DNA of 64,000 nt from Lachnoclostridium sp. (GTDB lineage Bacteria > Bacillota > Clostridia > Lachnospirales > Lachnospiraceae): contig JAMPEY010000014.1 in assembly GCA_023664665.1 (NCBI GenBank), positions 1 to 64,000 of the forward strand, given 5' to 3'. Position numbers and translations under genes: made by a program. Positions 34,906 through 48,922 of this stretch are shown piece by piece; the first letter of the stretch is position 1; each line of letters begins with the position of its first letter. The notes under the pieces are model-generated. The model made no database searches. It was given only the letters and a program-made list of their open reading frames with translations, and had not been told where the DNA came from.

Positions 34906-35031
34906 GAAAGTGGTATTTCAGCAGAAACAATCAAAGGCAGCAATGCACTGATTGAATTAACGGTTTATAAGTTTAACCTGAAAACAGGAACGCCACACTT
35001 TTACCGGCAGTTGGACGGGTTACAGACCTAA
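34906..35031 (+). pseudogene. Possible gene remnant
   Basis: An open stretch of 41 codons with no start codon or ribosome-binding site reads like protein towards its end (ELTVYKFNLKTGTPHFYRQL, stop at 35029-35031). I do not recognise it. It may be the tail of a decayed gene or chance. Confidence 0.2.
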
Positions 35032-35078
35032 AATGATTTTGGGATTTCAATTATTTTTAAGAAAGGGTAATAAAGCAA

Positions 35079-35384
35079 ATGGTAAAGAAAAGTTTGATAT
35101 GTGCATTAGCGCTTGGTGCAATGCTTACTATGTGCGCATGCGGCATGACGGGTAATACCAATAGTGTATCTGTTGGTCAAACATCAGGTATCGTTAATGA
35201 GGATGCGCTCAGGCTGAGGGAAGAGCCATCTACAGACGCAAAGGTGGTTGCCCTGTTGCAAAAAGAGCAGGAGGTAAGTATTGTGGCGGAGCAGAACGGA
35301 TTTTATCAGGTGTCCCTTCAAGCTGCGGAAGAGGATGAAATTTTGGGCGGCTATGTAAAAAAAGAATATATAGATGCCAAATAA
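35079..35384 (+). CDS. Small lipoprotein with SH3-like domain
   Basis: 101 residues. The signal peptide ends in the lipobox TMCAC, so the mature protein is lipid-anchored outside. Residues about 38-100 form a bacterial SH3 domain (ALRLREEPSTDAKVVALLQKEQEVSIVAEQNGFYQVSL, later GGYVKKEYI), usually a cell-wall or peptide-binding module. AAAGGG precedes the ATG. It is monocistronic and ends in a strong hairpin. No catalytic domain is attached; the ligand is unknown. Confidence 0.85.
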   Translation: MVKKSLICALALGAMLTMCACGMTGNTNSVSVGQTSGIVNEDALRLREEPSTDAKVVALLQKEQEVSIVAEQNGFYQVSLQAAEEDEILGGYVKKEYIDAK

Positions 35385-35452
35385 GTAAAGTTCTCAAAAG
35401 GAATAGTGGACGCCGGCATACAGCGCCAATGACTTGGCTTATCATGGAGTGT

Positions 35453-35487
35453 GGGTATACCTTATATGTAAGGTATACCCCTTTTTA
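35453..35487 (+). terminator. Intrinsic terminator of the SH3 lipoprotein gene
   Basis: A perfect 12-bp stem GGGTATACCTTA (35453-35464) with TAAGGTATACCC (35469-35480), a 4-nt loop, followed by CTTTTTAAT. Confidence 0.85.
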
Positions 35488-35527
35488 ATATCAGGGCAAA
35501 TTTCATATTTCATTTTCGGAACAGATA

Positions 35528-35536
35528 TGGTATAAT
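35528..35536 (+). promoter_or_regulatory. Extended -10 promoter of fba
   Basis: TGGTATAAT is an extended -10 element. The -35 region 17 bp upstream (TTTCAT) is weak, as is common with extended -10 promoters. The fba ATG is 39 bp downstream. Confidence 0.6.
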
Positions 35537-35574
35537 TATAAATCAATAAATTAAATAAATGGAGGAATGAAACA

Positions 35575-36438
35575 ATGTTAGTATCCGCAACAGAAATGCT
35601 GAAAAAAGCAAAAGCAGGTCATTATGCAGTTGGACAGTTTAACATTAACAATCTGGAGTGGACAAAATCCATTCTCCTTACTGCAAAAGAGCTTAAGTCC
35701 CCTGTTATTCTGGGCGTATCCGAAGGCGCCGGCAAGTACATGGGCGGCTATCATGCGGTAGTGGGCATGGTAAACGGTCTTTTGAAGGATTTGGATATTG
35801 ATGTTCCTGTGGCATTGCATTTGGACCACGGCAGTTTTGAAGGCTGCTATAAGTGTATTGAGGCAGGCTTCTCATCCATTATGTTTGACGGTTCCCATTA
35901 TCCCATTGATGAGAATGTACAGAAGACTACCGAATTGGTAAAGGCTGCTCATGGCAAGGGTTTGTCCATCGAGGCTGAAGTCGGCTCCATCGGCGGCGAG
36001 GAAGACGGCGTTATCGGTATGGGCGAATGCGCAGACCCCAAGGAGTGCAAGGCGATTGCCGATCTGGGCGTAGATTTCCTTGCGGCAGGCATCGGCAATA
36101 TCCATGGCAAATATCCTGCAAATTGGAAGGGACTCAGCTTTGAGACTCTGGATGCCGTTCAGCAGTTGACAGGCGAACTTCCTTTGGTGCTTCACGGCGG
36201 CACGGGTATTCCTGCAGACATGATTAAGAAAGCGATTTCTCTGGGCGTGGCAAAGATTAATGTAAATACCGAATGCCAGCTTTCCTTTGCAGAAGCTACC
36301 CGTAAGTACATAGAGGCAGGCAAGGACTTGGAAGGAAAGGGCTTTGACCCCCGCAAACTTCTGGCTCCCGGCGCAGAAGCCATCAAGGCTACCGTAAAAG
36401 AGAAGATGGAACTTTTCGGTTCCGTGGGCAAAGCGTAA
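35575..36438 (+). CDS. fba: Class II fructose-bisphosphate aldolase
   Basis: 287 residues. Zinc ligands are in ALHLDHG, EAEVGSIGG, GNIHGKYP and LHGGTG, and the FBP-contacting segment is INVNTECQLSF, all as in class IIA/B aldolases of Bacillota. It cleaves fructose 1,6-bisphosphate in glycolysis and runs in reverse in gluconeogenesis. GGAGG lies 7 nt upstream of the ATG. It has its own promoter and terminator and strongly biased codon use, in line with high expression. Confidence 0.97.
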   Translation: MLVSATEMLKKAKAGHYAVGQFNINNLEWTKSILLTAKELKSPVILGVSEGAGKYMGGYHAVVGMVNGLLKDLDIDVPVALHLDHGSFEGCYKCIEAGFSSIMFDGSHYPIDENVQKTTELVKAAHGKGLSIEAEVGSIGGEEDGVIGMGECADPKECKAIADLGVDFLAAGIGNIHGKYPANWKGLSFETLDAVQQLTGELPLVLHGGTGIPADMIKKAISLGVAKINVNTECQLSFAEATRKYIEAGKDLEGKGFDPRKLLAPGAEAIKATVKEKMELFGSVGKA

Positions 36439-36481
36439 AAGCCGAAACTTCACATTTGAATATTTCCCCTGAAAAGGGAGG

Positions 36482-36512
36482 ATGCCAAGGGATTCTATCC
36501 CTTGGCATTTAT
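36482..36512 (+). terminator. Terminator after fba
   Basis: A perfect 12-bp stem ATGCCAAGGGAT (36482-36493) with ATCCCTTGGCAT (36497-36508), a 3-nt loop, and the short T-rich tail TTATTAT. Confidence 0.75.
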
Positions 36513-36780
36513 TATGAAAAAGTTATTCAATGTAGCTTATAAAAGCTTATAGAGGATTATCGTTTTTACTATTCTAAGTATATGAAACAGAAATGTCTAA
36601 AACATGATGCACAATTTAAAAAAAATTTAAAGATTTGTGAACAAAATATGAACAAGGCATGGTTTTCTGAAAAATCCCAAAGAAAAGTATGGTAAGCACA
36701 AGAAACAAAATGTAATTTGCTATAACCAAAAGTTATAAAAAAGTATAAAAATTCGTGATGACAAAATAAAGAGCCTATTA
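36513..36780. other. Gene-free AT-rich interval
   Basis: Together with its flanks this is the longest gap in the window (36439-36866). Between the fba terminator and the next promoter I see only AT-rich sequence with scattered stop codons in all frames and no convincing hairpin or gene. It could hold upstream regulatory sites for the thiol-conjugate operon, but I recognise none. Confidence 0.6.
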
Positions 36781-36808
36781 TTGACAGAAACGGGTCAAGT
36801 GATATAAT
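36781..36808 (+). promoter_or_regulatory. Promoter of the thiol-conjugate operon
   Basis: A consensus TTGACA (36781-36786), 16-bp spacer and TATAAT (36803-36808). The inverted repeat TATCAAAAAGATA (36831-36843) lies between promoter and the AAAGGAGGT ribosome-binding site and could be an operator. No riboswitch-like fold is visible. Confidence 0.85.
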
Positions 36809-36866
36809 AGCATCTATAACATACTAATCATATCAAAAAGATAGGAATTAAAAGGAGGTAATCATA

Positions 36867-38078
36867 ATGAGTCATGCAGATGTACAGGAGGAGCTGCAGC
36901 CCTATTCAGATGAAGAAGCAGAAGCTCATGCCCGGGAGGTAGGCGTAAATCCCAGACCCAAGGAGACCATCAGTGAAATTGATGAAAGAGGAGCATTTAT
37001 TCGTCAGCCCAATGCTTTTATTCAGCCCTTTGGGGATAAAGAGGGGGATTTGAAAGCAGAAGCCGGGCGTTATGCCATTTATTGGGCGGTGGGATGTAAT
37101 TGGTCAAACCGGCCGGTCATTGTAAGAGACCTTTTGGGGCTGCAGGATGTCATAAAAGATTGTCTGGTGACTCATTCCGGGCAGACGAATAAATATGGTC
37201 ATGGATTTGGAAATCAGCCGGGACATAAGGATTCTTTGACGGGAGCGTATTTTTTAAGTGAGTTTTATAAGAGAGCCAATCCGGAATTTACCGGCAGAGC
37301 CACTACACCCACGCTGGTAGATATTATCAAAAAGGAAGCGGTGAATAATGATTACCACCGCCTGACCAATTACTTAGAGGTGCAGTTTCGGCCGTTCCAG
37401 CCGAAAGATGCGCCGGATCTTTACCCTAAGAAATTCCGCAAGGAAATCGATGAATTTAATGATTGGCTGTTTCCCCATGTAAACAACGGCCACTACCGCA
37501 TGGCATTCTGCCAATCTCCGGAGGCTTATGATGAGGCATATGAGGATTTCTATGAGTCTTTGGAGAAGCTGGAAAAAAGGCTTGAAACCAATCGCTTCCT
37601 GTTTGGAGATTACATTACGGACAGCGATGTGCGGGCTTATGTGACGCTTGTCAGATGGGATGTGAGCTATTATCACAACATAGGACCTGTGAAGAAACCC
37701 ATTCGTGATTATGAAAACATCTGGGGGTATTTGAGGGAACTTAACACGATACCGGCATTTCATAACAACAGCAATGCAAGAACGCTGGCTCTTAACGGCA
37801 TCCCCAAGGACAGCGGGAAGCTTTTCAGCGGTTATAACGAGAGAATTTTGACGAAGGTGGATTTTGATAAGCTCTGGGCGTATGACGGCGAAAGGCGGAA
37901 ATTAAGCAAAACTCCCGATGAGCTGTTTCTCCGCCATCCGGAAGGTGAAACATATGAGGAATATGCAGGCGAGATTTCCAAGACAATATGGAACAGTCCC
38001 GATTGGGAGGATCGGAATCCGAAAAACGGAGTTTTGTCTGTGGATGCATCTATAAATCCTTTGAAAGATCTGCTATAA
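36867..38078 (+). CDS. Glutathionyl-hydroquinone reductase-like protein (GST Xi/omega type)
   Basis: 403 residues behind AAAGGAGGT. The thioredoxin-like domain has the catalytic cysteine C77 in VGCNWSNRPVIVRDL, where YqjG/ECM4 enzymes have CPWAHR. It is followed by TPTLVDIIKKEAVNNDYHRLTNYLE and the all-helical GST C-terminal domain (LEKRLETNRFLFGDYITDSDVRAYVTLVRWD). Family members reductively remove glutathione from glutathionyl-hydroquinones. The extra N-terminal segment (about 1-30) and the C-terminal extension (about 330-403) differ from YqjG. Glutathione is rare in such anaerobes, so the real substrate may be another thiol conjugate (inference from the importer, GNAT and M20 genes downstream). 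First gene of an eight-gene run. Confidence 0.88.
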   Translation: MSHADVQEELQPYSDEEAEAHAREVGVNPRPKETISEIDERGAFIRQPNAFIQPFGDKEGDLKAEAGRYAIYWAVGCNWSNRPVIVRDLLGLQDVIKDCLVTHSGQTNKYGHGFGNQPGHKDSLTGAYFLSEFYKRANPEFTGRATTPTLVDIIKKEAVNNDYHRLTNYLEVQFRPFQPKDAPDLYPKKFRKEIDEFNDWLFPHVNNGHYRMAFCQSPEAYDEAYEDFYESLEKLEKRLETNRFLFGDYITDSDVRAYVTLVRWDVSYYHNIGPVKKPIRDYENIWGYLRELNTIPAFHNNSNARTLALNGIPKDSGKLFSGYNERILTKVDFDKLWAYDGERRKLSKTPDELFLRHPEGETYEEYAGEISKTIWNSPDWEDRNPKNGVLSVDASINPLKDLL

Positions 38079-38118
38079 AAATACAAAGCGCGGAAAGAGC
38101 GCGGAAAAGAGGAAAATT

Positions 38119-38994
38119 ATGAAAAAGAATATTGGAAAGAAAATTCTGGCATTGTCACTGCTTACTGCATTAGCATTTGGCACATTGGCAGGATGCGGAA
38201 ACAGCGACAGCGGCCAGAAAGCATCTGGTGTAAAAAAGATTACAGTAGCAACTACCGGAAGTCCGGCGCCTTATATGGTTGTGGATGAGAACAATGAGAT
38301 TGGCGGAAGCGACATAGAGATTCTGAAAGCAATTTTTGAGAGGCTTCCCCAATACGAATTGGAGATTATAAAAGCCGATGATCCGCTGACAGGGCTTACC
38401 AGCGGTCTGTACGATCTGGCGGTCAATAATTACGCATGGCGGGACGAAAGAGGCGAGTTATACTATTACAGCCTTCCTTACAAGACCGGTTATGATGTGT
38501 TTATCCAGAGAATTAATGACAAACCGCTGACGGGACTGCAGGATCTTGCGGACAGAGGATATAAGGTTGAGGTCAGTGCAGGCAACAATAAGGCATTGGC
38601 GTTGGAGCATTGGAATGAAGAGAATCCGGACCATCCGATTAATATTCTCTATACAGAGTCAAATTTCCAGATTAAGTTCCAGAATATCGTAGACGGAAAG
38701 ACGGATGTGGCAATTGATGACGGACCGATTCTTGATACCCTGATTGGGCAGTTTGGGCTAGAAAACGATTTGGTGGGTAATCCCATTGATGCCCGGACAC
38801 AGGAGTTTATCAGCCCGCACAACAGCACTTATTTCCTTTTTCCAAAGGATGATGACGGAAAGGCGCTTAGGGAAGATGTTGATGCAGTGATTAAAGAGCT
38901 TAAGGAAGATGGGACTCTTGCGGAAATTCTGACCAAGTACTTTGGGACAGACACAAGCCCTGCCGTAGAAAACCTGGAAGCAGCGCCTAACTAA
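38119..38994 (+). CDS. Amino acid ABC transporter substrate-binding lipoprotein
   Basis: 291 residues. The lipobox LAGC follows an MKKNIGKKILALSLL signal. The family 3 (polar amino acid) binding fold is shown by KITVATTGSPAPYMVVDENNEIGGSDIEILKAIFER and DVAIDDGPILDTLIG. It should bind an amino acid or amino-acid conjugate outside the cell and pass it to the permease (40889) and ATPase (41728) of the same operon. Unlike most such operons, three enzyme genes separate it from its permease. A small hairpin follows the stop and may stabilise its message. Confidence 0.92.
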   Translation: MKKNIGKKILALSLLTALAFGTLAGCGNSDSGQKASGVKKITVATTGSPAPYMVVDENNEIGGSDIEILKAIFERLPQYELEIIKADDPLTGLTSGLYDLAVNNYAWRDERGELYYYSLPYKTGYDVFIQRINDKPLTGLQDLADRGYKVEVSAGNNKALALEHWNEENPDHPINILYTESNFQIKFQNIVDGKTDVAIDDGPILDTLIGQFGLENDLVGNPIDARTQEFISPHNSTYFLFPKDDDGKALREDVDAVIKELKEDGTLAEILTKYFGTDTSPAVENLEAAPN

Positions 38995-39032
38995 ACCAAT
39001 CTAATGGGTTGGAGTAAAAATATGCACGAAAG

Positions 39033-39066
39033 TTCGCAGGTTATGGAAAGGCATGGTTATTAATAT
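39033..39066 (+). repeat. Duplicated leader before the amidohydrolase gene
   Basis: The segment after TTCGCAGGTT is nearly the same as at 41701-41723 before the ABC ATPase (22 of 23 positions from 39038) and similar to 28847-28880 before hprK. It contains GGAAAGGCATGGTTAT including a potential ribosome-binding site. Confidence 0.6.
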
Positions 39067-39069
39067 AAA

Positions 39070-40329
39070 ATGAAAAAACTTATCAAAAATGTGAATGTCT
39101 TTGATGGCAGGAGCGATTCCGTCTTGGAGCATCAAAATATTGTCATATCGGACAATCTGGTAACAGAGATTTTTGCGGGAGATTTTTCTGAGGAAGGCTT
39201 TGATGAGGTGACGGACGGGAAAGGGCAGTATGCCATTCCGGGACTTACGGATGCCCATGTGCATCTTGGCAAAACACATATTGATGGGGCTTCCCCGTCC
39301 TATGATGCCATAGTGGGAGCCGTGGTAGCAGGAAAACTCTTGAATCATGGCATTACCACGGTTCGGGATGCGGGAAGCATGACGGATGGGTTAAAGCGTG
39401 CCATAGACGAGGGAGTGATTCCGGGACCGAGGATTTATCCAAGCATGAACTATTTATCCCAGACCTGCGGGCATGGCGACTGCGAGGAGGCTCATGCCAA
39501 CAGAGATATACAGTACAGAAGTCCCAGAGGAGTGGCTTTGTGCGATGGTGTTGCGGAATGCAGGAGAGCAGTGAGGGAGCAGTTCTTTTTAGGGGCATCC
39601 CAGATTAAAATAATGGCGGGCGGAGGAATGAGTTCTGCCTGCGACCCGGTGGAAACCTTGCAGTTTTCTTTAGAGGAAATGAAGGCAATTGTCGAAACTG
39701 CTGCCGATTATGGAAGTTATGTGCTGGCGCACCTGTATACACCTAAGTGTATACAGCGTGCAGTGCAGGCTGGTGTCAAAAGTCTGGAGCATGGTCATTG
39801 GATTGACGAGGAAACCGCAAAAATGATGAAAGATGCAGAGGTTTTCTTAAATCCCTGCCCCCAGTTTACATTGGAAGAGGTAAAGTGGAATCATATGGGT
39901 GAATTTTCCGACCAGCCCTCGCAGTTAAAGAAAAAGAAGAAAAAGGGCGGGGCAAGGATTAAGGAGCACATAGAAGAAACCACGGAACTCATTCATAAAT
40001 ATGACTTGAAAATTCTCTTTGGCACGGATTTGATGATTATGTATAACGAATATGAGCCGAGGGAAAGCATGGATTTTACGGTTTACAAAAAGCGGTTCGG
40101 GTCATACAAGGGGCTGCTTGCAGCTACCGGGAACTTTAATGACATTACAAAACTGACAACTTATCAGAATCCCTATCCCGATGGAGAGATTGGGGTTTTG
40201 AAGAAAGGCTCTTATGCGGATATCGTGATTACAAATGGAAATCCCGTGGAAGATTTGGATATTCTGGGAAATACGGAGAATATTCTGTTTGTCATGAAGG
40301 ATGGGAAAGCATATAAGAATAAGTTGTAA
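39070..40329 (+). CDS. Metal-dependent amidohydrolase (imidazolonepropionase/prolidase-like)
   Basis: 419 residues. The binuclear metal site of the COG1228-type amidohydrolases is complete: the HxH in TDAHVHLG, a candidate carbamylated Lys in SQIKIMAGGGMSS, His in VLAHLYT and LEHGHWID, and Asp in LFGTDLM. The C-terminal small domain ends GSYADIVITNGNPVEDL. An odd Lys tract (QLKKKKKKGGARIKEH) sits in a surface loop. The enzyme likely hydrolyses a C-N or peptide bond of an imported compound. The ATG overlaps the stop of a six-codon frame (39053-39073). The best ribosome-binding site, GGAAAGG, is 18 nt away, so initiation may be coupled or weak. Confidence 0.88.
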   Translation: MKKLIKNVNVFDGRSDSVLEHQNIVISDNLVTEIFAGDFSEEGFDEVTDGKGQYAIPGLTDAHVHLGKTHIDGASPSYDAIVGAVVAGKLLNHGITTVRDAGSMTDGLKRAIDEGVIPGPRIYPSMNYLSQTCGHGDCEEAHANRDIQYRSPRGVALCDGVAECRRAVREQFFLGASQIKIMAGGGMSSACDPVETLQFSLEEMKAIVETAADYGSYVLAHLYTPKCIQRAVQAGVKSLEHGHWIDEETAKMMKDAEVFLNPCPQFTLEEVKWNHMGEFSDQPSQLKKKKKKGGARIKEHIEETTELIHKYDLKILFGTDLMIMYNEYEPRESMDFTVYKKRFGSYKGLLAATGNFNDITKLTTYQNPYPDGEIGVLKKGSYADIVITNGNPVEDLDILGNTENILFVMKDGKAYKNKL

Positions 40330-40365
40330 ACAGATAAATGGAAACAAAAGAAAGGCGGCGGCAGC

Positions 40366-40875
40366 ATGGAAGTTTATAGAATCGAAGGAGAGAATGCACC
40401 TGCATGGCTGTATAAAGCATATGACTATGTGAGAATGGATGCCTTTGTCTTTGGGCAGAATATTCCGCTTGAAATGGAATTTGGGCATGACGAGCCTGTA
40501 GAAACCCTTGAGGCAGTGGTGCTTACAGAAGACCATAAGCCCATAGCCGGCTGCCGGATCACCTATCCAAGAGATGATATCGGAAAGATAGGCAGGGTAT
40601 GCGTGATTCGTGACAGGCAGAGAAGCGGTGTAGGACATATTTTGATAGAGGAAGCGGAAAAGTGGATTAGGGAAAAGGGATATCGGCATATTGTGATTAA
40701 TTCTCAGGATCGGGCGGCGGCATTCTATAAGAAATGCGGATATTATCTGGTTCCAGATGTGGATCCTGAAATCTATGAGAATCATCCGCCACGCATGCAG
40801 AATGAAGAAGAGAAACAAAAGCACAGGGCAGAGATGGGCTTTAGCTGTGTACTGGTAGAAAAATATTTAGATTGA
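40366..40875 (+). CDS. GNAT family N-acetyltransferase
   Basis: 169 residues, a single GNAT domain of the ElaA-like type. The acetyl-CoA loop is RVCVIRDRQRSGVGHILIEEAEKW (Q/R-x-x-G-x-G form), and the late strand and helix carry INSQDRAAAFYKKCGYYLVPD. AAAGGCGGCGG lies before the ATG. In Bacillus operons for S-substituted cysteines a GNAT enzyme acetylates the amino group of the imported conjugate, and an M20 enzyme later removes the acetyl group. The same pair occurs here, which suggests an equivalent role. Confidence 0.87.
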   Translation: MEVYRIEGENAPAWLYKAYDYVRMDAFVFGQNIPLEMEFGHDEPVETLEAVVLTEDHKPIAGCRITYPRDDIGKIGRVCVIRDRQRSGVGHILIEEAEKWIREKGYRHIVINSQDRAAAFYKKCGYYLVPDVDPEIYENHPPRMQNEEEKQKHRAEMGFSCVLVEKYLD

Positions 40876-40888
40876 GAAGGAAACGGTT

Positions 40889-41623
40889 ATGACAAAACTT
40901 TTTGATTTTAAGCAGGTACTGACAAATATACCGGAATTGCTTACATATCTTCCTATCACATTAGAATTGGCATTGCTGGCAATGCTCATGGGGTTAGGGC
41001 TGGGGCTTTTGCTGGCGGTTATAAAAATAAAAGAGATTCCCATATTAAAGCAGATTGCGGCAGTTTTTGTGTCGATGGTCAGAGGCACGCCGGTATTGGT
41101 GCAGCTTTATATCGTATATTTTGGCGTTCCTATGTTTTTTAAGTATTTGAACCAGAAGTATGGAACAAACCTTGCGGTGGCGAATATTCCGGGATTTTTG
41201 TATGCAGTGCTTGCTCTGGGATTGAATTCTTCGGCATTCAGTGCGGAAATGATCCGCTCTGCGCTTATGAGCGTGGGAAAAGGGCAGCTGGAAGCGGCAT
41301 ATGCTTTGGGAATGACATACGGACAGGCACTGCGAAGGATTATTCTTCCGGAAGCAATGACAGTGGCGCTCCCTACCATTGGAAATTCGCTGATATCATC
41401 TATCAAAGGGACTTCGCTGGCATTTACCTGCGCGGTGGTGGAAATTACCGCACAGGGAAAAATCATAGGAGGAAGGAACTACCGTTACTTTGAGGTTTAT
41501 TGTTCTCTGGCAATCATTTATTGGCTTGTGACGATAGTGATAGAGCAGATTCTCAAATTTGCGGAAAAGAAATTGGCATTGCCCGAGCAGGTGGAAAATT
41601 TTACCGAGCAGAAGGCGGCATGA
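40889..41623 (+). CDS. Amino acid ABC transporter permease
   Basis: 244 residues with five predicted membrane spans typical of HisM/TcyB-type permeases. The EAA loop reads AYALGMTYGQALRRIILPEA, which docks the ATPase. Downstream LISSIKGTSLAFTCAVVEIT is also family-typical. Only one permease gene is present, so it should work as a homodimer with the lipoprotein at 38119 and the ATPase at 41728. It starts 13 bp after the GNAT gene. Confidence 0.93.
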   Translation: MTKLFDFKQVLTNIPELLTYLPITLELALLAMLMGLGLGLLLAVIKIKEIPILKQIAAVFVSMVRGTPVLVQLYIVYFGVPMFFKYLNQKYGTNLAVANIPGFLYAVLALGLNSSAFSAEMIRSALMSVGKGQLEAAYALGMTYGQALRRIILPEAMTVALPTIGNSLISSIKGTSLAFTCAVVEITAQGKIIGGRNYRYFEVYCSLAIIYWLVTIVIEQILKFAEKKLALPEQVENFTEQKAA

Positions 41624-41700
41624 GCGGTAAGGAGAGCAAAACAAATCTATTTGTCCTGCAAATATGTGCCTGCGGTGGCATATAATCGCCAAGAAACCGT

Positions 41701-41723
41701 AGGTTGTGGAAAGGCATGGTTAT
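41701..41723 (+). repeat. Duplicated leader before the ABC ATPase gene
   Basis: A 23-bp match (one mismatch) to 39038-39060. The 104-bp gap between permease and ATPase also has two small hairpins (near 41643-41653 and 41662-41685), possible points of RNA processing inside the operon. Confidence 0.65.
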
Positions 41724-41727
41724 CACT

Positions 41728-42498
41728 ATGAGCTTTATAGAAATCAGGAATTTACATAAAAAATATAAAGAGAATGTTGTATTGGACGGAATAAATCTGG
41801 ATATTGCGCAGGGAAATGTCATAGGCATCATAGGACCTTCCGGAACGGGAAAGTCAACCTTTCTGCGATGTCTGAATCAGCTTGAGATACCCGAAGTGGG
41901 GACAATAAAGCTTCAGGATGCAGAGATTAATCTTTCTTCTAAGAAGAACAAGAAAGAGATTTTGGAGCTTCGTCAAAATACTGGAATGGTATTTCAGCAG
42001 TTCAATTTATTTGACCGCAAGACGGCGCTGGAAAATGTGGAAGAGGGATTATTGGTTGTCCAGAAGAAATCAAAGTTGGAAGCCAGAGAAATTGCAATGG
42101 AAGAATTGAGAAGAGTAGGGATGTTAGGATGGGCAAACCATTATCCCAGACATCTTTCGGGCGGCCAGCAGCAGAGAGTAGCTATTGCGAGGGCGTTGGC
42201 GATGAAACCCAAGCTTTTGCTTTTTGATGAACCTACATCTGCATTGGACCCGGAGATGGTGGGCGAAGTGTTGGATGTTATCAAGCAGATTGCCTCCGAA
42301 GGGTTCACCATGCTTTTGGTATCCCATGAGATGGCGTTTGTAAGGAATGTTTCAAACAGAGTGATATTTATTGACAAGGGTGGGATTGTGGAAGACGGAA
42401 CTCCGCAGCAGGTGTTTTATAATCCGCAGAATGAAAGGACAAAGGAGTTCTTGGCAAAGATGCATATGCTGGAAATGGAACCGGAGTATATTATTTAA
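41728..42498 (+). CDS. Amino acid ABC transporter ATP-binding protein
   Basis: 256 residues from ATG 41728 (MSFIEIRNLHKKY); ATG 41716 is an alternative in the same frame. Walker A GPSGTGKST, the Q loop GMVFQQFNLF, signature LSGGQQQR, Walker B LLLFDEPTSALDPE and the switch His in VSHEM are all intact, as in GlnQ/HisP-type ATPases. It energises the importer made with the permease and lipoprotein of the same operon. Confidence 0.95.
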   Translation: MSFIEIRNLHKKYKENVVLDGINLDIAQGNVIGIIGPSGTGKSTFLRCLNQLEIPEVGTIKLQDAEINLSSKKNKKEILELRQNTGMVFQQFNLFDRKTALENVEEGLLVVQKKSKLEAREIAMEELRRVGMLGWANHYPRHLSGGQQQRVAIARALAMKPKLLLFDEPTSALDPEMVGEVLDVIKQIASEGFTMLLVSHEMAFVRNVSNRVIFIDKGGIVEDGTPQQVFYNPQNERTKEFLAKMHMLEMEPEYII

Positions 42499-42524
42499 AA
42501 ATTTTGCGATAGGAGAAAATGAAA

Positions 42525-44378
42525 ATGGCGCAGTATGATTATGAGATAGTGAATGGGAGAAAAATAAGAGTCCGCCCTAAGGAAACGGTATCGGAGATAG
42601 ATGTGAATGGTTATTTTAGAAGGCAGCCGAATCATTTTACGACTCCCTTTGGAGATGGCGAGGGGGAGCTTAAGGCGGAAGGAAACGGAAGATACAGGCT
42701 TGTGTGGGCAAAGCTCTGCCATTGGTCAAACAGGGCATCCATAGTGAGGGAGTTAGAAGGGCTTGAAGACCAAATTTCAGTGAATATGGTGGAACATGCG
42801 CCCCATGAGAAAAATCTTGGCTGGGAATATGTATATAACAAAGATAATGTGGATCCGATTTTAGGCGACCAATTTTTGTCGGAAGCATATTACAGGGCGG
42901 ATGAAGATTACCAAGGGAGAACTACGGTTCCTGCACTGATTGACACGGTGACGGGAAAAGTGGTTAATAACGATTATAATTGGCTGACGAATTATCTGGA
43001 AGTGGCTTTCAGGCCATGGCATAAAGAAGGGGCACCGGAATTATATCCCATAGGGCTTCGGGAAGAAATTGATAAAATGAATCTTTGGTTATTTGATAAT
43101 ATTAATAATGCCGTTTACAGAAGTTCTTTTTCCCGGAGCAATGAAGGGCATTTTGACGGGGTAAATACTTTTTATGCGGCAATGGACAGGCTGGAGAAGA
43201 GATTGGAAACAAGGCGCTTTCTGTTTGGCGATTATGTTACGGATTCCGATGTGCGGCTTTATGTGACGCTTGCCCGGCTGGATATCAGGTATACGAATCA
43301 ATTGGGAGAAACCAAGCATCCGCTTTATACTTATAAGAATTTATGGGGCTATGCAAGGGAACTGTGGAGCATTCCTGCATTTAGAAATAATACTTTCTTT
43401 GCGGATTTTGCGGTGCCGCCTGCGGATGTAAAGGGAAATGCCCGGAGGAGTTTTAATTTCCGATTTTTAAAGCAGATTGATTTTGAGAAATATTGGGGCG
43501 AGCCTGTGGACAGGTCAGGATTGTCAAAAGATCCGCAGAATAAACTTCTGCCGGAAACAGATGCCGGAAGCGCCAGAAAGGCGGATGATACCATTGTGGG
43601 TGCTGCAAAGTTTGCGGCCGATGCAGAGATTTATCGCGGCATCCATTCCGTGCCAAGCACGGAGATTGCAAAATATACGGAGGAGGAACTTCCGACAATT
43701 AAAGATGCCAAAAGTCTTCCTGAATTTAAAGACGGCAGGGCAAAAAACGCGGCGGATATTATTGCGGAAATCAAGGAACTGCCCGATGGACCGGAGCTTG
43801 CGCCGGAGAATAAAAAGGAGCAGCTTGACCAATGGAAAGAGTATATTAAGGTTAATGTGACAGATGCTTTATCAAGCCTTCTTACATCTGTTAAATTGGA
43901 AGATTTTATAAACGCAGGCGGTCTGTTTTATGGGGCGCTGGAAAAATTGGAACAGGAACTTACGAACAAAAGATTTTTGCTGGGAGATTTTGTGTCGGAA
44001 GCGGATGTGCTTTTGTATGTGTCATTAGTCAGATTTGATGTGCATTATTCAAGATATCTGGGACCGGTAAAATACAGGGTGCAGGATTTAAAAAACATAT
44101 CCGAGTATTTGCGGGATCTTTATCAGATTCCTGCCTTTATGCATCATACGGATTTTGGGGAGCTGCTCAGGGAAGGGGAGAACACTTCCGAAAATCCGCT
44201 GTTTCGCGAAAGCACTCATTATGACCGTGTGCTTCCCGGAATAGATTTTGATGCACAGTGGAAAGTTCTCACAGAAAGAGCCTATCTTTCCGAAGACCCC
44301 ACACATCCCATACAGCTTACGGATAACAGGAGATTTTCCTTGGATCCTGCATGGTATGAACTTGGAGCCGAGGCATAA
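42525..44378 (+). CDS. Glutathionyl-hydroquinone reductase-like protein with extra GST-C domain
   Basis: 617 residues from ATG 42525 (AGGAG 9 nt upstream). Residues about 15-355 parallel the first gene of the operon: RVRPKETVSEIDVNGYFRRQ, catalytic C65 in AKLCHWSNRASIVREL, and a GST-C domain with LEKRLETRRFLFGDYVTDSDVRLYVTLARLD. After a linker (about 355-425) a second GST-C-like helical domain follows (about 430-550: LEKLEQELTNKRFLLGDFVSEADVLLYVSLVRFD, YLRDLYQIPAFMHH) without its own thioredoxin fold or Cys. I know of no described GST with this order. Duplication of the first gene's domain is the simplest origin. Confidence 0.88.
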   Translation: MAQYDYEIVNGRKIRVRPKETVSEIDVNGYFRRQPNHFTTPFGDGEGELKAEGNGRYRLVWAKLCHWSNRASIVRELEGLEDQISVNMVEHAPHEKNLGWEYVYNKDNVDPILGDQFLSEAYYRADEDYQGRTTVPALIDTVTGKVVNNDYNWLTNYLEVAFRPWHKEGAPELYPIGLREEIDKMNLWLFDNINNAVYRSSFSRSNEGHFDGVNTFYAAMDRLEKRLETRRFLFGDYVTDSDVRLYVTLARLDIRYTNQLGETKHPLYTYKNLWGYARELWSIPAFRNNTFFADFAVPPADVKGNARRSFNFRFLKQIDFEKYWGEPVDRSGLSKDPQNKLLPETDAGSARKADDTIVGAAKFAADAEIYRGIHSVPSTEIAKYTEEELPTIKDAKSLPEFKDGRAKNAADIIAEIKELPDGPELAPENKKEQLDQWKEYIKVNVTDALSSLLTSVKLEDFINAGGLFYGALEKLEQELTNKRFLLGDFVSEADVLLYVSLVRFDVHYSRYLGPVKYRVQDLKNISEYLRDLYQIPAFMHHTDFGELLREGENTSENPLFRESTHYDRVLPGIDFDAQWKVLTERAYLSEDPTHPIQLTDNRRFSLDPAWYELGAEA

Positions 44379-44413
44379 AATATTATTTAGCGGACGATTA
44401 AGGAGAGAAAAGC

Positions 44414-45517
44414 GTGATTTCCGGTGATTTTATAAAAGAAACATTCAGTGAACTTGTGTCGATTGATTCGCCGTCTCTGAACGAAAGGGCTATGAAGGAT
44501 CATATGAAGGCAATGTTCTTAAAATTAGGAATAGAATTGGAAGAGGATGCCAGTGCATCTATTACCGGTTCAAATGCAGGCAATCTGTACGGATATGTAA
44601 AGGGAAACGGGCAGCCGCCTATTCTGCTTTCGGCGCATATGGATACGGTGATGCCCGGATTAGGGAAAAAGGCAGTTTTTCATAAGGATGGGAAAATTAC
44701 AAGCGATGGGACGACCGTGCTGGGAGCAGACGATGTTTCGGGAATCACAGCCATTTATGCAGCTCTGTGTAATTTACACAGCAATTCTATGGAGCATCGT
44801 GACATAGAGCTGCTCTTTACCACGGGAGAGGAATTGTATTGTAAAGGAGCGAAAGCTTTCGATTATAAAAGGGTGAAATCGAAAAGCACGGTTGTGCTGG
44901 ATTTGAGCGGTGAGATTGGCGATGCAGCTTATGCTGCCCCTACAATTTTTTCTATTGAAGCAAAAATTCAGGGGAAATCTGCTCACGCAGGATTCTGTCC
45001 GGAGGAGGGCATTCATGCCATCAAGGCCTGCTGTGAAGCTGTGGCGCATCTGCCGCAGGGACATATAGACGAGGTGACTACCGCAAATATTGGTTTGATT
45101 GCAGGAGGCGACGGCATTAATATTGTTCCGAAGGAGTGTGTGGTAAAAGGGGAAGTGCGCAGCTTGTGTCATGAGCGCGCGCAGGCTGTGGCAGAACAGT
45201 GGAAGCAGATTTTTGTGGAAAATGTCCAAAAGTGCGGCGCAAGACTGCAATGGAAGCAGCAGATGGATATTCAGGCTTATGAAACGAGTCAAAACAGCCG
45301 GATTATCCGTGATTATGAAAAAGCCTGCAAACGAATAAATATTACACCACATTTCGTGAAAAGCTTTGGCGGAAGCGACAACAATGTCTTTGCGCAGAAT
45401 GGAATAGAGGGCATTGTAATTGCCACATCCATGAATAATGTGCATGGGTGTGAGGAATATGCAGATGTAGCCGAAATTTCAAAAGTTTCGGAAATTTTGA
45501 TAGGAATGCTGGCTTAA
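44414..45517 (+). CDS. M20 family metallopeptidase (peptidase T-like)
   Basis: 367 residues from a GTG start. Zinc ligands and catalytic residues are in place: SAHMDTV, LGADDVSG, TTGEE, VVLDLSGEIG and NNVHGCEEY. The dimerisation domain sits in the middle (AKIQGKSAHAGFCPEEGIHAIKA). It resembles PepT/PepT2-like aminopeptidases, and members of this clan also deacylate N-acyl amino acids. In this operon it is the candidate for the last step, releasing a free amino acid from an N-acetylated or peptidyl intermediate (inference). Last gene of the operon. Confidence 0.88.
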   Translation: MISGDFIKETFSELVSIDSPSLNERAMKDHMKAMFLKLGIELEEDASASITGSNAGNLYGYVKGNGQPPILLSAHMDTVMPGLGKKAVFHKDGKITSDGTTVLGADDVSGITAIYAALCNLHSNSMEHRDIELLFTTGEELYCKGAKAFDYKRVKSKSTVVLDLSGEIGDAAYAAPTIFSIEAKIQGKSAHAGFCPEEGIHAIKACCEAVAHLPQGHIDEVTTANIGLIAGGDGINIVPKECVVKGEVRSLCHERAQAVAEQWKQIFVENVQKCGARLQWKQQMDIQAYETSQNSRIIRDYEKACKRINITPHFVKSFGGSDNNVFAQNGIEGIVIATSMNNVHGCEEYADVAEISKVSEILIGMLA

Positions 45518-45519
45518 TG

Positions 45520-45553
45520 AACCGAAGAAGCTCTTTAAAGCTTCTCCGGTTCC
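45520..45553. terminator. Hairpin between convergent M20 and cyclophilin genes
   Basis: Arms AACCG-AGAAGCT and AGCTTCT-CGGTT (45520-45532 and 45539-45551) around a short loop that includes the cyclophilin stop codon. Neither side has a proper T run, so termination strength is doubtful. Confidence 0.45.
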
Positions 45554-46056
45554 GGATATTCTACTCCGAAACAGTCTACAGTCACACTTTTCATTACTTG
45601 TTTTTCTAAAGGCCTGTCAGAATAATCCGTAGGCGTTTCAGCAATACGGTTTACCACATCCATACCTTCAATCACTTTCCCGAACGCCGCATAGCCGCCG
45701 TCCAGATGGGGTGCGTTTTTGTGCATGATAAAGAATTGGGAGCCTGCGGAATCGGGATGTTTGGATCTCGCCATGGACAGTACGCCTTCCGTATGCTTTA
45801 AATCATTGGTCACACCGTTTTGTGCGAATTCCCCCTTGATGCTGTAGCCGGGGCCGCCCATGCCGGTGCCTTCCGGACAGCCGCCCTGAATCATAAACCC
45901 GCGGATGACTCTGTGAAAAATCAAACCGTCATAAAAGTTTTTATGAATCAGGCTGATGAAATTGTTTACGGAGACGGGCGCCACATCGGGATAAAGCTCC
46001 AGACGGATGATATCTCCGTTTTCCATGGTGATTGTTACAATAGGATTTTGTGCCAT
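45535..46056 (-). CDS. Peptidyl-prolyl cis-trans isomerase (cyclophilin type)
   Basis: 173 residues. The cyclophilin core is clear: YDGLIFHRVIRGFMIQGGCPEGTG with the catalytic Arg, GEFAQNG, LSMARSKHPDSAGSQFFI and FGKVIEGMDVVNRIAE. There is no signal peptide, so the protein is cytoplasmic and a general folding catalyst. It lies opposite the neighbouring genes and is not part of their operons. Confidence 0.95.
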   Translation of the reverse strand: MAQNPIVTITMENGDIIRLELYPDVAPVSVNNFISLIHKNFYDGLIFHRVIRGFMIQGGCPEGTGMGGPGYSIKGEFAQNGVTNDLKHTEGVLSMARSKHPDSAGSQFFIMHKNAPHLDGGYAAFGKVIEGMDVVNRIAETPTDYSDRPLEKQVMKSVTVDCFGVEYPEPEKL

Positions 46057-46089
46057 AAGAATAACCTGTACCTTTCTTGTTGTGTGATT

Positions 46090-46095
46090 TATAAT
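46090..46095 (+). promoter_or_regulatory. Possible -10 box of the GNAT gene at 46167
   Basis: TATAAT with a poor -35 (TGTACC, 17 bp upstream). Transcription from it would begin at about 46102, just past the ATG at 46101, which supports the later start at 46167. Confidence 0.35.
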
Positions 46096-46166
46096 ATTAA
46101 ATGAATGAAAACATTAATATTGTAGCGGAAAATGCCGAAAAGGTAAAGAGGCGGAGAAAGGTTTCC

Positions 46167-47012
46167 ATGTATTATTTGCAAAAAACAGAGGTCATCTTAG
46201 AGGAAAAAGAATATGCGGAGAGGTTTTTTACGGTGTTTGATGCTTTAAAAGCGCAGGGGCTGGAAGCAGACATTTGCGAAGCGGACAATGCGGAAGAAGC
46301 GGAAAATACGGGAACGCTTCTGATTACCGATAGCGTTTCCGTGACCCAAAAGGCTGTGGCGGCAGGCAGGGCGGTGCTGGTATTTTTACACGGGAAAAAC
46401 AGAAAACAGAGCTTTGAGGGGGTGTGCTACGCTTTTGAAAATCCGGAGGATTTGGACAGAGAGTATCTGGAGCAGGTGTACCGCCGCCATGCGGGGCTGC
46501 CATGGGATATTCTGGATACGGAGAGATGTCATCTGCGGGAAACTACGGAGGCGGATGTGGAAGATTTTTACCGCATTTATGCGGAACCTTCCGTCACGGC
46601 ATATATGGAGGACTTATACAGTGACCCGGAGCAGGAGAGGGAATATACCCGCAAATATATTGAAAATGTCTATGGCTTTTATGGATTTGGCGTGTGGACG
46701 GTGATAAAGAAAGATACGGGAGAAGTCATCGGCAGGGCCGGCCTTTCTTATAGGGAAGGATTTGACGAACCGGAGCTGGGCTTTGTTATCGGTGTGCCCT
46801 GGCAGGGGAAGGGTTATGGTCTGGAAGTGTGCCGGGCGGTGCTTAGGTATGGCAGGGAGCATCTGGGGCTGGGAACCATACAGGCTTTGGTGGAAGCCGG
46901 AAATCAAGTGTCCCTGCATTTGTGCAAAAAGCTGGGAATGACTGTGGCAGGGACGGTCATTTTGCAAGAGAAACAATATGTAAAGCTGATTTTTGATGAA
47001 TTATTTATATAG
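46167..47012 (+). CDS. Two-domain GNAT acetyltransferase
   Basis: 281 residues from ATG 46167 (GAGAAAGG 6 nt upstream); the frame opens at ATG 46101 but without a ribosome-binding site. The N-terminal 110 residues form an unassigned alpha/beta region resembling a small haloacid-dehalogenase or receiver-like fold (LLITDSVSVTQKAVAAGRAVLVFLHG). The C-terminal part (about 115-281) is a RimJ/RimL-type GNAT domain (ERCHLRETTEADVEDFYRI, ELGFVIGVPWQGKGYGLEVC). The substrate is unknown. It stands alone between the cyclophilin gene and the FecR-domain gene. Confidence 0.8.
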   Translation: MYYLQKTEVILEEKEYAERFFTVFDALKAQGLEADICEADNAEEAENTGTLLITDSVSVTQKAVAAGRAVLVFLHGKNRKQSFEGVCYAFENPEDLDREYLEQVYRRHAGLPWDILDTERCHLRETTEADVEDFYRIYAEPSVTAYMEDLYSDPEQEREYTRKYIENVYGFYGFGVWTVIKKDTGEVIGRAGLSYREGFDEPELGFVIGVPWQGKGYGLEVCRAVLRYGREHLGLGTIQALVEAGNQVSLHLCKKLGMTVAGTVILQEKQYVKLIFDELFI

Positions 47013-47028
47013 GGATTCATTTTCCCTA

Positions 47029-47057
47029 TTGGCAGAAATTGGTTCTTTTGTTATAAT
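47029..47057 (+). promoter_or_regulatory. Promoter of the FecR/cyclase/deoxysugar gene run
   Basis: TTGGCA (47029-47034), 17-bp spacer, TATAAT (47052-47057). It is the last strong promoter before 57.4 kb on this strand. It also shows that the in-frame ATG at 46993 cannot be the start of the FecR gene. Confidence 0.75.
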
Positions 47058-47136
47058 AAAAATTGGGAAATTAGACGAACCCGCGAATGGCGTTATTGTC
47101 GGGAAAGTCTGCGTAACAAAGAGAGGAGTGTGCACT

Positions 47137-48861
47137 ATGGGAAAAGCAATGGGGCATAAAAAACTAATCATTGCCTTAGCCGTGTCGGCAGCCCTGCTGG
47201 TGGGAATTGTGGCATGTGTTATGGCGTTCGGGAGCAAGAAACAATCGTATCGTTCCATCAAAATCGTGGAGATGGAAGGAAAGGTTGCCATAGACAGAGA
47301 GGGCATGGCAAGCTTGGACGCATCGGTGAATATGAATCTGGTGTCGGGGGATTATGTGACTACGGCACAGGATTCCTATGTGGTGTTACGGTTGGATGCG
47401 GACAAGTATGTGATGCTGGGAGAAGGCGGCGCCATGAAAGTGATTGCCGAGGGAGATGAAAACAGCGGCAGGACTTCCATAGAGCTGGCTTCCGGCAGTG
47501 TGTTAAATGAAATCCAGAACCCTCTGGGGCAGAATGCTACCTTTGATATCGTTACGCCAAATGCGACCATGTCTGTGAGGGGCACTGTGTTTGAGGTGCG
47601 TAAAAACGCCGACGGTACTATGGGCGTGTTGGTTTATGACGGTAAGGTAGCCGTAGGATTGGACGGAAAAGAACCGGTATTGTATCAAGCCGGGGAATAT
47701 ACCGAATTTACCGGCGGAGACACTCCCGAATTTTTGACGGAAAAGGGAACCATTACCGAGGCGCAGATGAGCGAAGAGGTATTGGAGCGTTTACAGAAAA
47801 TACAGGAGCAGGGCAGGGATTTGAATTTGGATGTGCTGCAGACATCTGCAAAGAATGAAGGTGAGCAGAGCAAAGCGCAGGAAGAGGCATCGCGCAAGGA
47901 AGAGATAGCGCAGCAGAAAGAGCAGGAAGAAGTAACGCAGCAGAAAGAACAGGAAGCGGCACAGCACAAAGTGCAGGAAGCAACACAGCACAAGGAAGAA
48001 ACAGTGCAACAGAAAGAACAGGAATCCGTACAGAAACAGAAAGAAGAGGCAGCACAGCGCAAGGAAGAAACAGCACAAAAGAAAGAACTTGCACAGAAAA
48101 AGGAACCTGTGACGAAACCGCAGGAAACAGTTCAACAACCGGCACCGGAACAGGCTCAGACAACGGCGGAAGAACCGAATATAGATGTGGATGACGATGA
48201 TGATGACGATTCCGATACGGATTCCGGAATGAGTTCCGTGCAGCCGGCTCCGGAAGAACCCGAGCAGCCGGCTCCGGTAGCGCCGGACAAACCGACGCCG
48301 GAAGAACCGGACAAGCCAAATGTGGGAGAACCCGAGAAACCGGATCCGATAGTGCCGGATAAGCCAAGTGTGGAAGAGCCGGATAAGCCGACGCCGGAAG
48401 AGCCGGATAAACCTAAACCGGAAGAACCCGATAAGCCCAAACCGGAGCAGGCTAAGGTGATATATCTGCTGCCTTGTATTGTATTGAGCAGTGAGGGAGA
48501 AGACGGCGAAAGATATTCTGACCTTAAGGATGTGGAGCCCGTTGTTTATATGGAGAAAACCGTTGAAGAAGCGAACTGGCCGTGGAAGTCTATCAGTGTA
48601 GAGGAAACCGCAGATTATCAGGGTGATATCGGCGGCGCAACGCACTATCAGATTATAGGCTGGTGTACGGAAGACGGAACAGAGTGGAATTTCAGCAAGG
48701 ATGCCCTGCAGGAGGATGTGAATATATATCCTATTTGGCATAATAACGGGAAATTCTATTATCCTGTGATTTATGATGACCCGGATACAGGCAAGACCTA
48801 TTGCAACAGCATCGAAAAGGGCTCCCTGCCCCGAGTGAACGGTACGGTAATCGGTCAATAA
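47137..48861 (+). CDS. FecR-domain surface protein with charged and Pro-rich repeats
   Basis: 574 residues from ATG 47137 (AGAGGAG upstream). One N-terminal transmembrane helix (about 8-30) anchors it. A FecR domain follows (about 40-190: VEMEGKVAIDREG, LVSGDYVTTAQDSYVVLRLD, FDIVTPNATMSVRGTVFEV). Next come a Gln/Glu/Lys-rich segment with repeats of about 8-10 residues (about 245-345), an acidic run (DDDDDDDSDTDS), and a Pro-rich spacer of PEEPDKP-type repeats (about 370-440). The C-terminal domain of about 130 residues holds a Listeria-Bacteroides type (Flg_new) strand pair, IIGWCTEDGTEWNF and VNIYPIW. FecR domains often sense or transmit signals outside the cell. It precedes a CHASE2 cyclase. 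Confidence 0.85.
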   Translation: MGKAMGHKKLIIALAVSAALLVGIVACVMAFGSKKQSYRSIKIVEMEGKVAIDREGMASLDASVNMNLVSGDYVTTAQDSYVVLRLDADKYVMLGEGGAMKVIAEGDENSGRTSIELASGSVLNEIQNPLGQNATFDIVTPNATMSVRGTVFEVRKNADGTMGVLVYDGKVAVGLDGKEPVLYQAGEYTEFTGGDTPEFLTEKGTITEAQMSEEVLERLQKIQEQGRDLNLDVLQTSAKNEGEQSKAQEEASRKEEIAQQKEQEEVTQQKEQEAAQHKVQEATQHKEETVQQKEQESVQKQKEEAAQRKEETAQKKELAQKKEPVTKPQETVQQPAPEQAQTTAEEPNIDVDDDDDDDSDTDSGMSSVQPAPEEPEQPAPVAPDKPTPEEPDKPNVGEPEKPDPIVPDKPSVEEPDKPTPEEPDKPKPEEPDKPKPEQAKVIYLLPCIVLSSEGEDGERYSDLKDVEPVVYMEKTVEEANWPWKSISVEETADYQGDIGGATHYQIIGWCTEDGTEWNFSKDALQEDVNIYPIWHNNGKFYYPVIYDDPDTGKTYCNSIEKGSLPRVNGTVIGQ

Positions 48862-48922
48862 TCAAGGCATGAACAAAGACGGATCAAAACCAAAGATATC
48901 ATTTTGAAATACAGGGTGTGGC

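Follow-up and report, generated by a model that had tools for sequence, protein, structure and literature searches.

Organization of the operon

The window analysed here is a 64,000-nucleotide stretch of Lachnoclostridium sp. (contig JAMPEY010000014.1, positions 1 to 64,000) from a genome of 3.01 Mb. A co-directional block of eight open reading frames (ORFs) on its + strand encodes two proteins related to glutathionyl-hydroquinone reductases (GHRs), an amino acid importer, an acetyltransferase and two hydrolases. We propose, with about even confidence, that this operon is an accessory sulfur-salvage cassette in which an S-conjugated cysteine is imported and split without oxygen by GHR-like Xi-class glutathione S-transferases (GSTs).

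The first gene encodes GHR1, a Xi-class GST-like protein of 403 aa with the motif CNWSNR (36867..38078). It is followed by genes for a substrate-binding lipoprotein (SBP) of the family 3 polar amino acid type (38119..38994; SBP_bac_3), a prolidase/dipeptidase-like amidohydrolase that we take to be of the COG1228 type (39070..40329; Amidohydro_1), a GNAT acetyltransferase (40366..40875; Acetyltransf_1 above cut-off), a polar amino acid ATP-binding cassette (ABC) permease (40889..41623; BPD_transp_1, with TIGR01726 above cut-off), an amino acid ABC ATPase (41728..42498; ABC_tran), the Xi-class GST-like protein GHR2 of 619 aa with the motif CHWSNR and a second GST C-terminal domain (42519..44378; two GST_C_2 stretches), and a PepT-like M20 metallopeptidase with a GTG start (44414..45517; TIGR01883 above cut-off). 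The ATPase frame is open from a TTG at 41704, and the ATG at 41728 was judged the likelier start. Pfam backs all eight assignments and NCBIfam agrees for six of them, GHR1 and GHR2 being without any NCBIfam model.

The intergenic spacing is 13-75 bp, except for about 100 bp upstream of the ATPase gene. A sigma-70 type promoter, TTGACA-N16-TATAAT, precedes the block on the + strand (36781..36808) with 12 of 12 consensus matches; it is the single exact TTGACA-N16-18-TATAAT in the 64 kb, where 0.03 would be expected, and such a site was present in 3 of 100 shuffles. This bears out the sequence-only reading as far as it described one promoter and eight co-directional genes of these kinds. Two weak terminator-like sites lie in the block on the + strand, at 43443 inside GHR2 and at 45471, shortly before the M20 gene ends, and such matches in the region occur at about the chance level (10 observed against 9.2). 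No RNA elements were found by an Rfam scan of positions 35000-47000.

The sole genome of the same genus among the 299 family genomes searched (G022) carries uvrC-hprK-murB-rapZ-whiA-dgk-fbaA and, after about 270 bp, ppi-gnatR, with the operon missing in between. Because the flanks are shared, the eight genes behave as one accessory block that is present or absent together between these two genomes.

GHR1 and GHR2 belong to a divergent clade of Xi-class GSTs

GHR1 is placed in the Xi class by fold and GHR2 by sequence; all 11 PDB entries that GHR2 matches by sequence are GHR/Xi-type or putative GST entries. The two proteins resemble the Xi-class enzymes YqjG, ECM4, PcpF and MstX in fold, in the catalytic Cys with a Trp two residues on, in two of the three tyrosines and in the G-site Arg, and differ from them in a C-terminal tail (GHR1) or a second C-terminal domain (GHR2) as well as in active-site positions considered below. 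GHR2 combines one thioredoxin-type domain with two helical C-terminal domains (predicted model, pLDDT 73.7). An assembly error as the source of its length was rejected because 68 of 120 listed matches, out of 1002 in the database, align over 99-100% of it.

In a tree built by a quick method, GHR1 and GHR2 fall in one clade of 44 rows, throughout which the catalytic Cys (C77 in GHR1, C67 in GHR2) is kept. The tree omits 15 of the 21 Actinomycetota loci described below, the duplicates L048 and L050, three misread ORFs, ORFs shorter than 250 aa and one ORF without the Cys motif. A second paralogue clade, with CPH[AS] replacing CPWA, comprises seven rows (L068, L075, L076, L077, L084, L045 and L116; SH-aLRT 100); some of its members have long C-terminal extensions, and ordinary CPWA paralogues lie alongside in several loci.

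Importer, acetyltransferase and hydrolases

The SBP has 4eq9 and 4c0r as its best solved relatives, both of which we take to be glutathione-binding GshT proteins, and Bacillus subtilis YtmK (2o1m) as the third. The best equivalog of the permease is the cystine permease PRK15100 and the best model of the ATPase is L-cystine TcyN, each below that model's cut-off. With these three proteins and a GNAT member assigned by family (Pfam), the cluster contains an amino acid ABC importer and a putative counterpart of the acetyltransferase of a yxe/scm-type locus.

The hydrolases are less typical. For the M20 enzyme, an assignment as a YxeP-type deacetylase is not supported: it is PepT-like by TIGR01883, and its match to YxeP reaches only E 3e-4, so that a deacetylase role for it is a guess. 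Its own genome holds no close second copy, only two weak matches. The amidohydrolase, whose best solved relatives are 3feq/3n2c, 3mkv and 2qs8, has no homologue in any of the relatives' GHR loci compared; it was therefore rejected as a member of the conserved set and is a local addition to the cluster. A frameshift as the cause of its Lys run was also rejected, because a comparable stretch is present in a homologue of 65% identity.

These proteins could also be read as a system for glutathione or cysteine-containing peptides, in which a GshT-like SBP serves import, the PepT-like M20 enzyme and the amidohydrolase carry out digestion, and the task of the GHRs is either to consume the thiol so acquired or to act on glutathione S-conjugates. 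The closest SBP structures and the peptidase-like character of both hydrolases fit such a system, as does a stretch of another genome (G160, L146:3054-6964) in which an amidohydrolase homologue adjoins permease, ATPase and SBP genes that resemble the operon's own and where no GHR match was seen. We nevertheless consider it quite unlikely, because no gamma-glutamyl transpeptidase is among the eight genes by Pfam and because the Glu-Ser pair that holds the gamma-glutamyl group in ECM4 is changed to Asp-Tyr or Asp-Phe in 44 of 44 clade members. The GHR of the Gilliamella operon also has Asp-Tyr there, despite a glutamate-cysteine ligase encoded in that genome.

Conservation of the neighbourhood in fermenting bacteria

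A reference-genome scan, from which the best 80 of at least 589 GHR loci were kept, gave 10 Bacillaceae-type, 21 Actinomycetota and 3 Alphaproteobacteria loci by record title, all 46 remaining loci being classed as fermenter-type. The last group takes in L055, whose title reads Bacillus sp., and the isolate name RGIG10167 is shared by L065, L075 and L081. Six kinds of neighbour were scored within 5 kb on the same strand: permease, GNAT, M20, and cysteine-synthase-type (PALP), cystathionine-type and class I/II pyridoxal 5'-phosphate (PLP) enzymes. At least one kind occurs in 42 of the 46 fermenter-type loci and in none of the 34 others. Under the same limits the fermenter-type loci contain the permease in 22 cases, the ATPase in 25, the SBP in 24, GNAT in 24, a PepT-like M20 enzyme in 14, PALP in 18, cystathionine-type enzymes in 11 and class I/II PLP enzymes in 8, and 27 of them have at least two GHR genes.

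The importer genes and GNAT lie close to the GHR genes: within 4 kb there are 22 permease, 24 ATPase, 26 SBP and 27 GNAT matches, and beyond 5 kb none of any (335 and 185 kb covered, respectively). M20 matches are also close, 13 within 4 kb and one beyond 5 kb. PALP (21 vs 6; 0.063 vs 0.032 per kb), cystathionine-type (11 vs 3) and class I/II PLP genes (7 vs 3) are less sharply placed.

The clade of GHR1 and GHR2 itself, taken over both locus sets, is represented by 37 loci. In 35 of them an amino acid ABC gene, a GNAT gene, an M20 gene or a PLP gene of cysteine or methionine metabolism (cysteine-synthase-type or other) lies no more than 5 kb away; the exceptions are L051, whose gene runs to the end of the contig, and L059, where oligopeptide-type ABC genes take their place. 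Permease linkage in 19 of the 37 is far above the per-locus chance of about 1.4% estimated from the permease count of the window's own genome, the loci being related and not independent. The nearest relatives, L034 and L054, retain the order GHR1-SBP-GNAT-permease-ATPase-M20 and lack the amidohydrolase and GHR2. These data support linkage of the gene set beyond chance in fermenting bacteria, among cysteine and methionine genes. The conservation expected by the sequence-only reading thus holds for the set at large but not for the amidohydrolase.

Sulfur context and relation to known salvage pathways

Genes of sulfur amino acid metabolism recur around the GHRs. Among linked genes, one representative each of cysteine synthase, a PatB-family C-S lyase and O-acetylhomoserine (OAH) sulfhydrylase scored above cut-off; cysteine-desulfurase-type genes occur in 4 loci and NifU-type genes in 3, and the recurring regulators are LysR (12 loci) and Rrf2 (5 loci). 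T-box leaders were seen in one of 17 relatives' loci scanned, L100 of Paucilactobacillus, where they flank a GHR-rich cluster (642-917 and 13543-13813) and precede metNIQ-like genes, as read from gene sizes, and cystathionine-type genes.

The nearest known counterpart is the scm (yxe) pathway of B. subtilis for S-(2-succino)cysteine, which consists of the ScmL acetyltransferase, the ScmK/YxeK monooxygenase or 2SL lyase, the ScmP deacetylase and the YxeMNO importer. YxeK and 2SL are alternative cleaving enzymes, complementation of yxeK having been carried out for 2SL, and 11 of 102 yxe loci in a published survey had neither gene (PMC9706529). The ytm/ytn and yha systems of B. subtilis, for S-alkylcysteine salvage, share the logic of acetylation, breakdown and deacetylation and rely on monooxygenases for the breakdown; deacetylases of such pathways were characterized in 2025 (PMC12757645). 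The present operon resembles scm in clustering an amino acid ABC importer, a GNAT and an M20 hydrolase, and ytm in the relation of its SBP to YtmK, and it departs from scm in its PepT-like M20 enzyme and its extra amidohydrolase.

A closer likeness to yxe is found in other loci. An M20 family related to YxeP occurs in nine loci by clustering and eight by direct BLAST, and both members tested on NCBIfam (L085 and L091) score above the TIGR01891 cut-off. The Loigolactobacillus locus L091 has the order GHR-SBP-permease-ATPase-GHR-GNAT-M20, with YxeP as the best match of its M20 enzyme (E 2e-95); the Enterococcus record L103 has an M20 gene (YxeP, E 4.8e-94) with two GHRs, a cysteine synthase above cut-off and a cystathionine-type enzyme. 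Neither a monooxygenase nor a class I lyase was found in the sequenced stretch of either locus. L091 and L103 provide the strongest link to the yxe/scm pathways, one that exceeds what the window offers. The supposed kinship with yxe operons finds support in them, and the M20 enzyme of the window does not share it.

A serious rival, although we hold it rather unlikely, is that the GHRs act as thioltransferases: cystine or mixed disulfides would be imported and reduced by the GHRs, the linked PLP enzymes would use the cysteine, and GNAT and M20 would handle side products. The cystine transporter models on which permease and ATPase score highest agree with this, and one Xi enzyme, the corynebacterial MstX, which takes a mycothiol-menadione conjugate as substrate, is also a monothiol thiol transferase (PMC6815410). 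It would require no new chemistry and is compatible with the active-site losses described below. It leaves unexplained the frequency of GNAT in fermenter-type loci (24 of 46), the YxeP-related M20 family and the divergent GHR paralogues that make up pairs or larger sets in more than half of these loci.

A defence against quinones or oxidative stress, with cystine uptake supplying the thiol, GHRs detoxifying quinone-thiol adducts and cysteine salvage incidental, seems to us very improbable. Known Xi enzymes do use glutathionyl- or mycothiolyl-hydroquinones or -menadione, and in a colitis metatranscriptome COG0435 was among the oxidative-stress genes, driven by Brucella-assigned reads (PMC5030693). 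The neighbours, however, are mostly sulfur amino acid genes, the quinone site has lost its third tyrosine, and neither a quinone reductase nor a peroxidase was found among the scanned representatives of neighbour families present in at least three loci, part of such families having been scanned.

Search for known cleaving enzymes and for glutathione synthesis

Neither a YxeK-type monooxygenase nor a 2SL lyase is among the eight genes of the operon. A GHR homologue is carried by 17 family genomes, and Bac_luciferase was found in none of them, including the 14 that are at least 90% complete (in the control, it was detected in 10 of 14 known genomes); this sets them apart from the monooxygenase-dependent ytm/ytn and yha systems and makes an oxygen-independent replacement plausible. 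Nor was Glu_cys_ligase found in these 17 and 14 genomes (control: detected in 2 of 14). While every fermenter-type locus has at least one Xi-GST gene, BLAST with four luciferase ORFs, which a remote relative could escape, found luciferase-like ORFs in none of them and only in L073, L089, L090 and L111, all non-fermenter loci; a BLAST search under the same limit, for which six lyase ORFs of family genomes served as queries, found no class I lyase in loci L034-L133. In both respects the fermenter-type loci differ from scm. The earlier suggestion that GHRs replace the oxygen-dependent step is accordingly plausible, but the reductive C-S splitting that it implied is weakened by the active-site losses.

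Proposed pathway and its weak points

In the pathway that we propose, the SBP-permease-ATPase system would import an S-substituted cysteine, perhaps in the form of a small peptide, and the GNAT would acetylate its amine. The catalytic cysteine of a GHR (C77 or C67) may then attack the sulfur of the conjugate, so that the substituent leaves as a reduced product and an enzyme-cysteine mixed disulfide remains. By analogy with yeast ECM4, whose crystals soaked with GS-menadione revealed a Cys-SG mixed disulfide and which required added glutathione for turnover (PMC5063366), this disulfide would be resolved by a second small thiol, here presumably not glutathione. The M20 enzyme, aided in this operon by the amidohydrolase, would release cysteine from the amide or peptide, and the whole route would need no oxygen. 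As the best reading of the data, the cassette would represent a third variant of the acetylate-cleave-deacetylate pathways, with a putative substrate and chemistry.

Quinone- or catechol-like groups or alpha-keto electrophiles, as in known GHRs, are the likeliest leaving groups, and the loss of the third tyrosine leaves room for others; with this chemistry, aliphatic thioethers are unlikely to be cleaved if their substituent is a poor leaving group. Cysteine adducts of plant quinones would be sensible candidates, a guess prompted by the gut-type bearers: rumen, omasum or cecum appears in the titles of 7 of the best 80 loci, and both Gilliamella and Snodgrassella live as symbionts in the bee gut.

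Several findings weigh against this proposal. The CPWA motif, stated to be conserved in characterized GHRs (PMC6345682, PMC5063366), is CNWS in GHR1 and CHWS in GHR2, and in 44 of 44 clade members Pro is lost and Ala replaced by Ser. GHR1 retains Y210 and Y268 of the tyrosine triad; the third tyrosine, missing from both GHR1 and GHR2, is present in 1 of the 43 clade members with a letter at that position vs 81 of 82 other rows, the sole non-clade row without it also lacking the Cys. With both features lost, the known GHR chemistry may not carry over, and the archaeal Xi enzyme NmGHR was inactive in the assays tried (PMC6345682). The presumed GshT nature of the closest SBP structures and the best solved relative of the M20 enzyme, 3gb0, do not point to a yxe-type pathway. 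The operon is missing from its congener, and of 299 family genomes only 17, counting that of the window, were found to have a homologue. The gene set is variable, GNAT not being seen in 22 and PepT-like M20 in 32 of the 46 fermenter-type loci, some of which are cut by contig ends; the L091 contig itself stops 131 bases past the M20 gene, where a further gene could lie. A luciferase-type gene is present in 3 of 13 further bearer genomes, that of L091 included, and not found in the other 10. Among more distant bearers, 6 of 11 possess a glutamate-cysteine ligase, which makes the lack of glutathione synthesis a trait of the lineage and not of the whole system. Taken as a whole, the sequence-only reading is partly supported: the linkage and the missing monooxygenases favour it, and the type of M20 enzyme, the amidohydrolase and the possible role of the GHRs in disulfide reduction do not.

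A broader proposal, tentative and somewhat short of probable, is that the CxWSNR clade of Xi GSTs forms a new class of C-S-cleaving enzymes that need no oxygen and act on S-conjugates of cysteine or N-acetylcysteine with a thiol other than glutathione, the missing third pathway variant, spread through gut and plant-associated fermenters. If true, it would provide a route by which anaerobes of the gut regain the sulfur of cysteine that is conjugated to plant, host or drug electrophiles. It would also give a role to a large protein group so far named, where named, only glutathione S-transferase, in a lineage whose genomes yielded no glutamate-cysteine ligase. For yxe-type loci without a known cleaving enzyme, the GHR-like proteins are concrete candidates that would work without oxygen. 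As the sequence-only reading had supposed, the combination appears to be new: among the matches listed in the open-licence literature, we found no description of Xi GSTs or GHR-like genes in cysteine-import operons.

Other genes near the GHRs and the operon

In three loci (L104:2-5274, L105:3749-7810 and L106:753-5567), the cysteine-synthase-type and GHR genes are preceded by genes for a NifH-like protein and two nitrogenase-like subunits. The one tested, from L106, has 9fmg (E 4e-80) and 9d9u (E 2e-79) as its best solved relatives, which we presume to be methylthio-alkane reductases. A protein of 370-430 aa recurs near GHRs in several loci (L037:10697-11992 and relatives) and has a weak NMT1/THI5-like match just above cut-off; it is perhaps the binding protein of another ABC system. 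In the window, the region 3' of the operon (46993-50722) encodes a protein that is rich in repeats and has a membrane segment at its N terminus, and then a likely membrane adenylate/guanylate cyclase, both named by eye.

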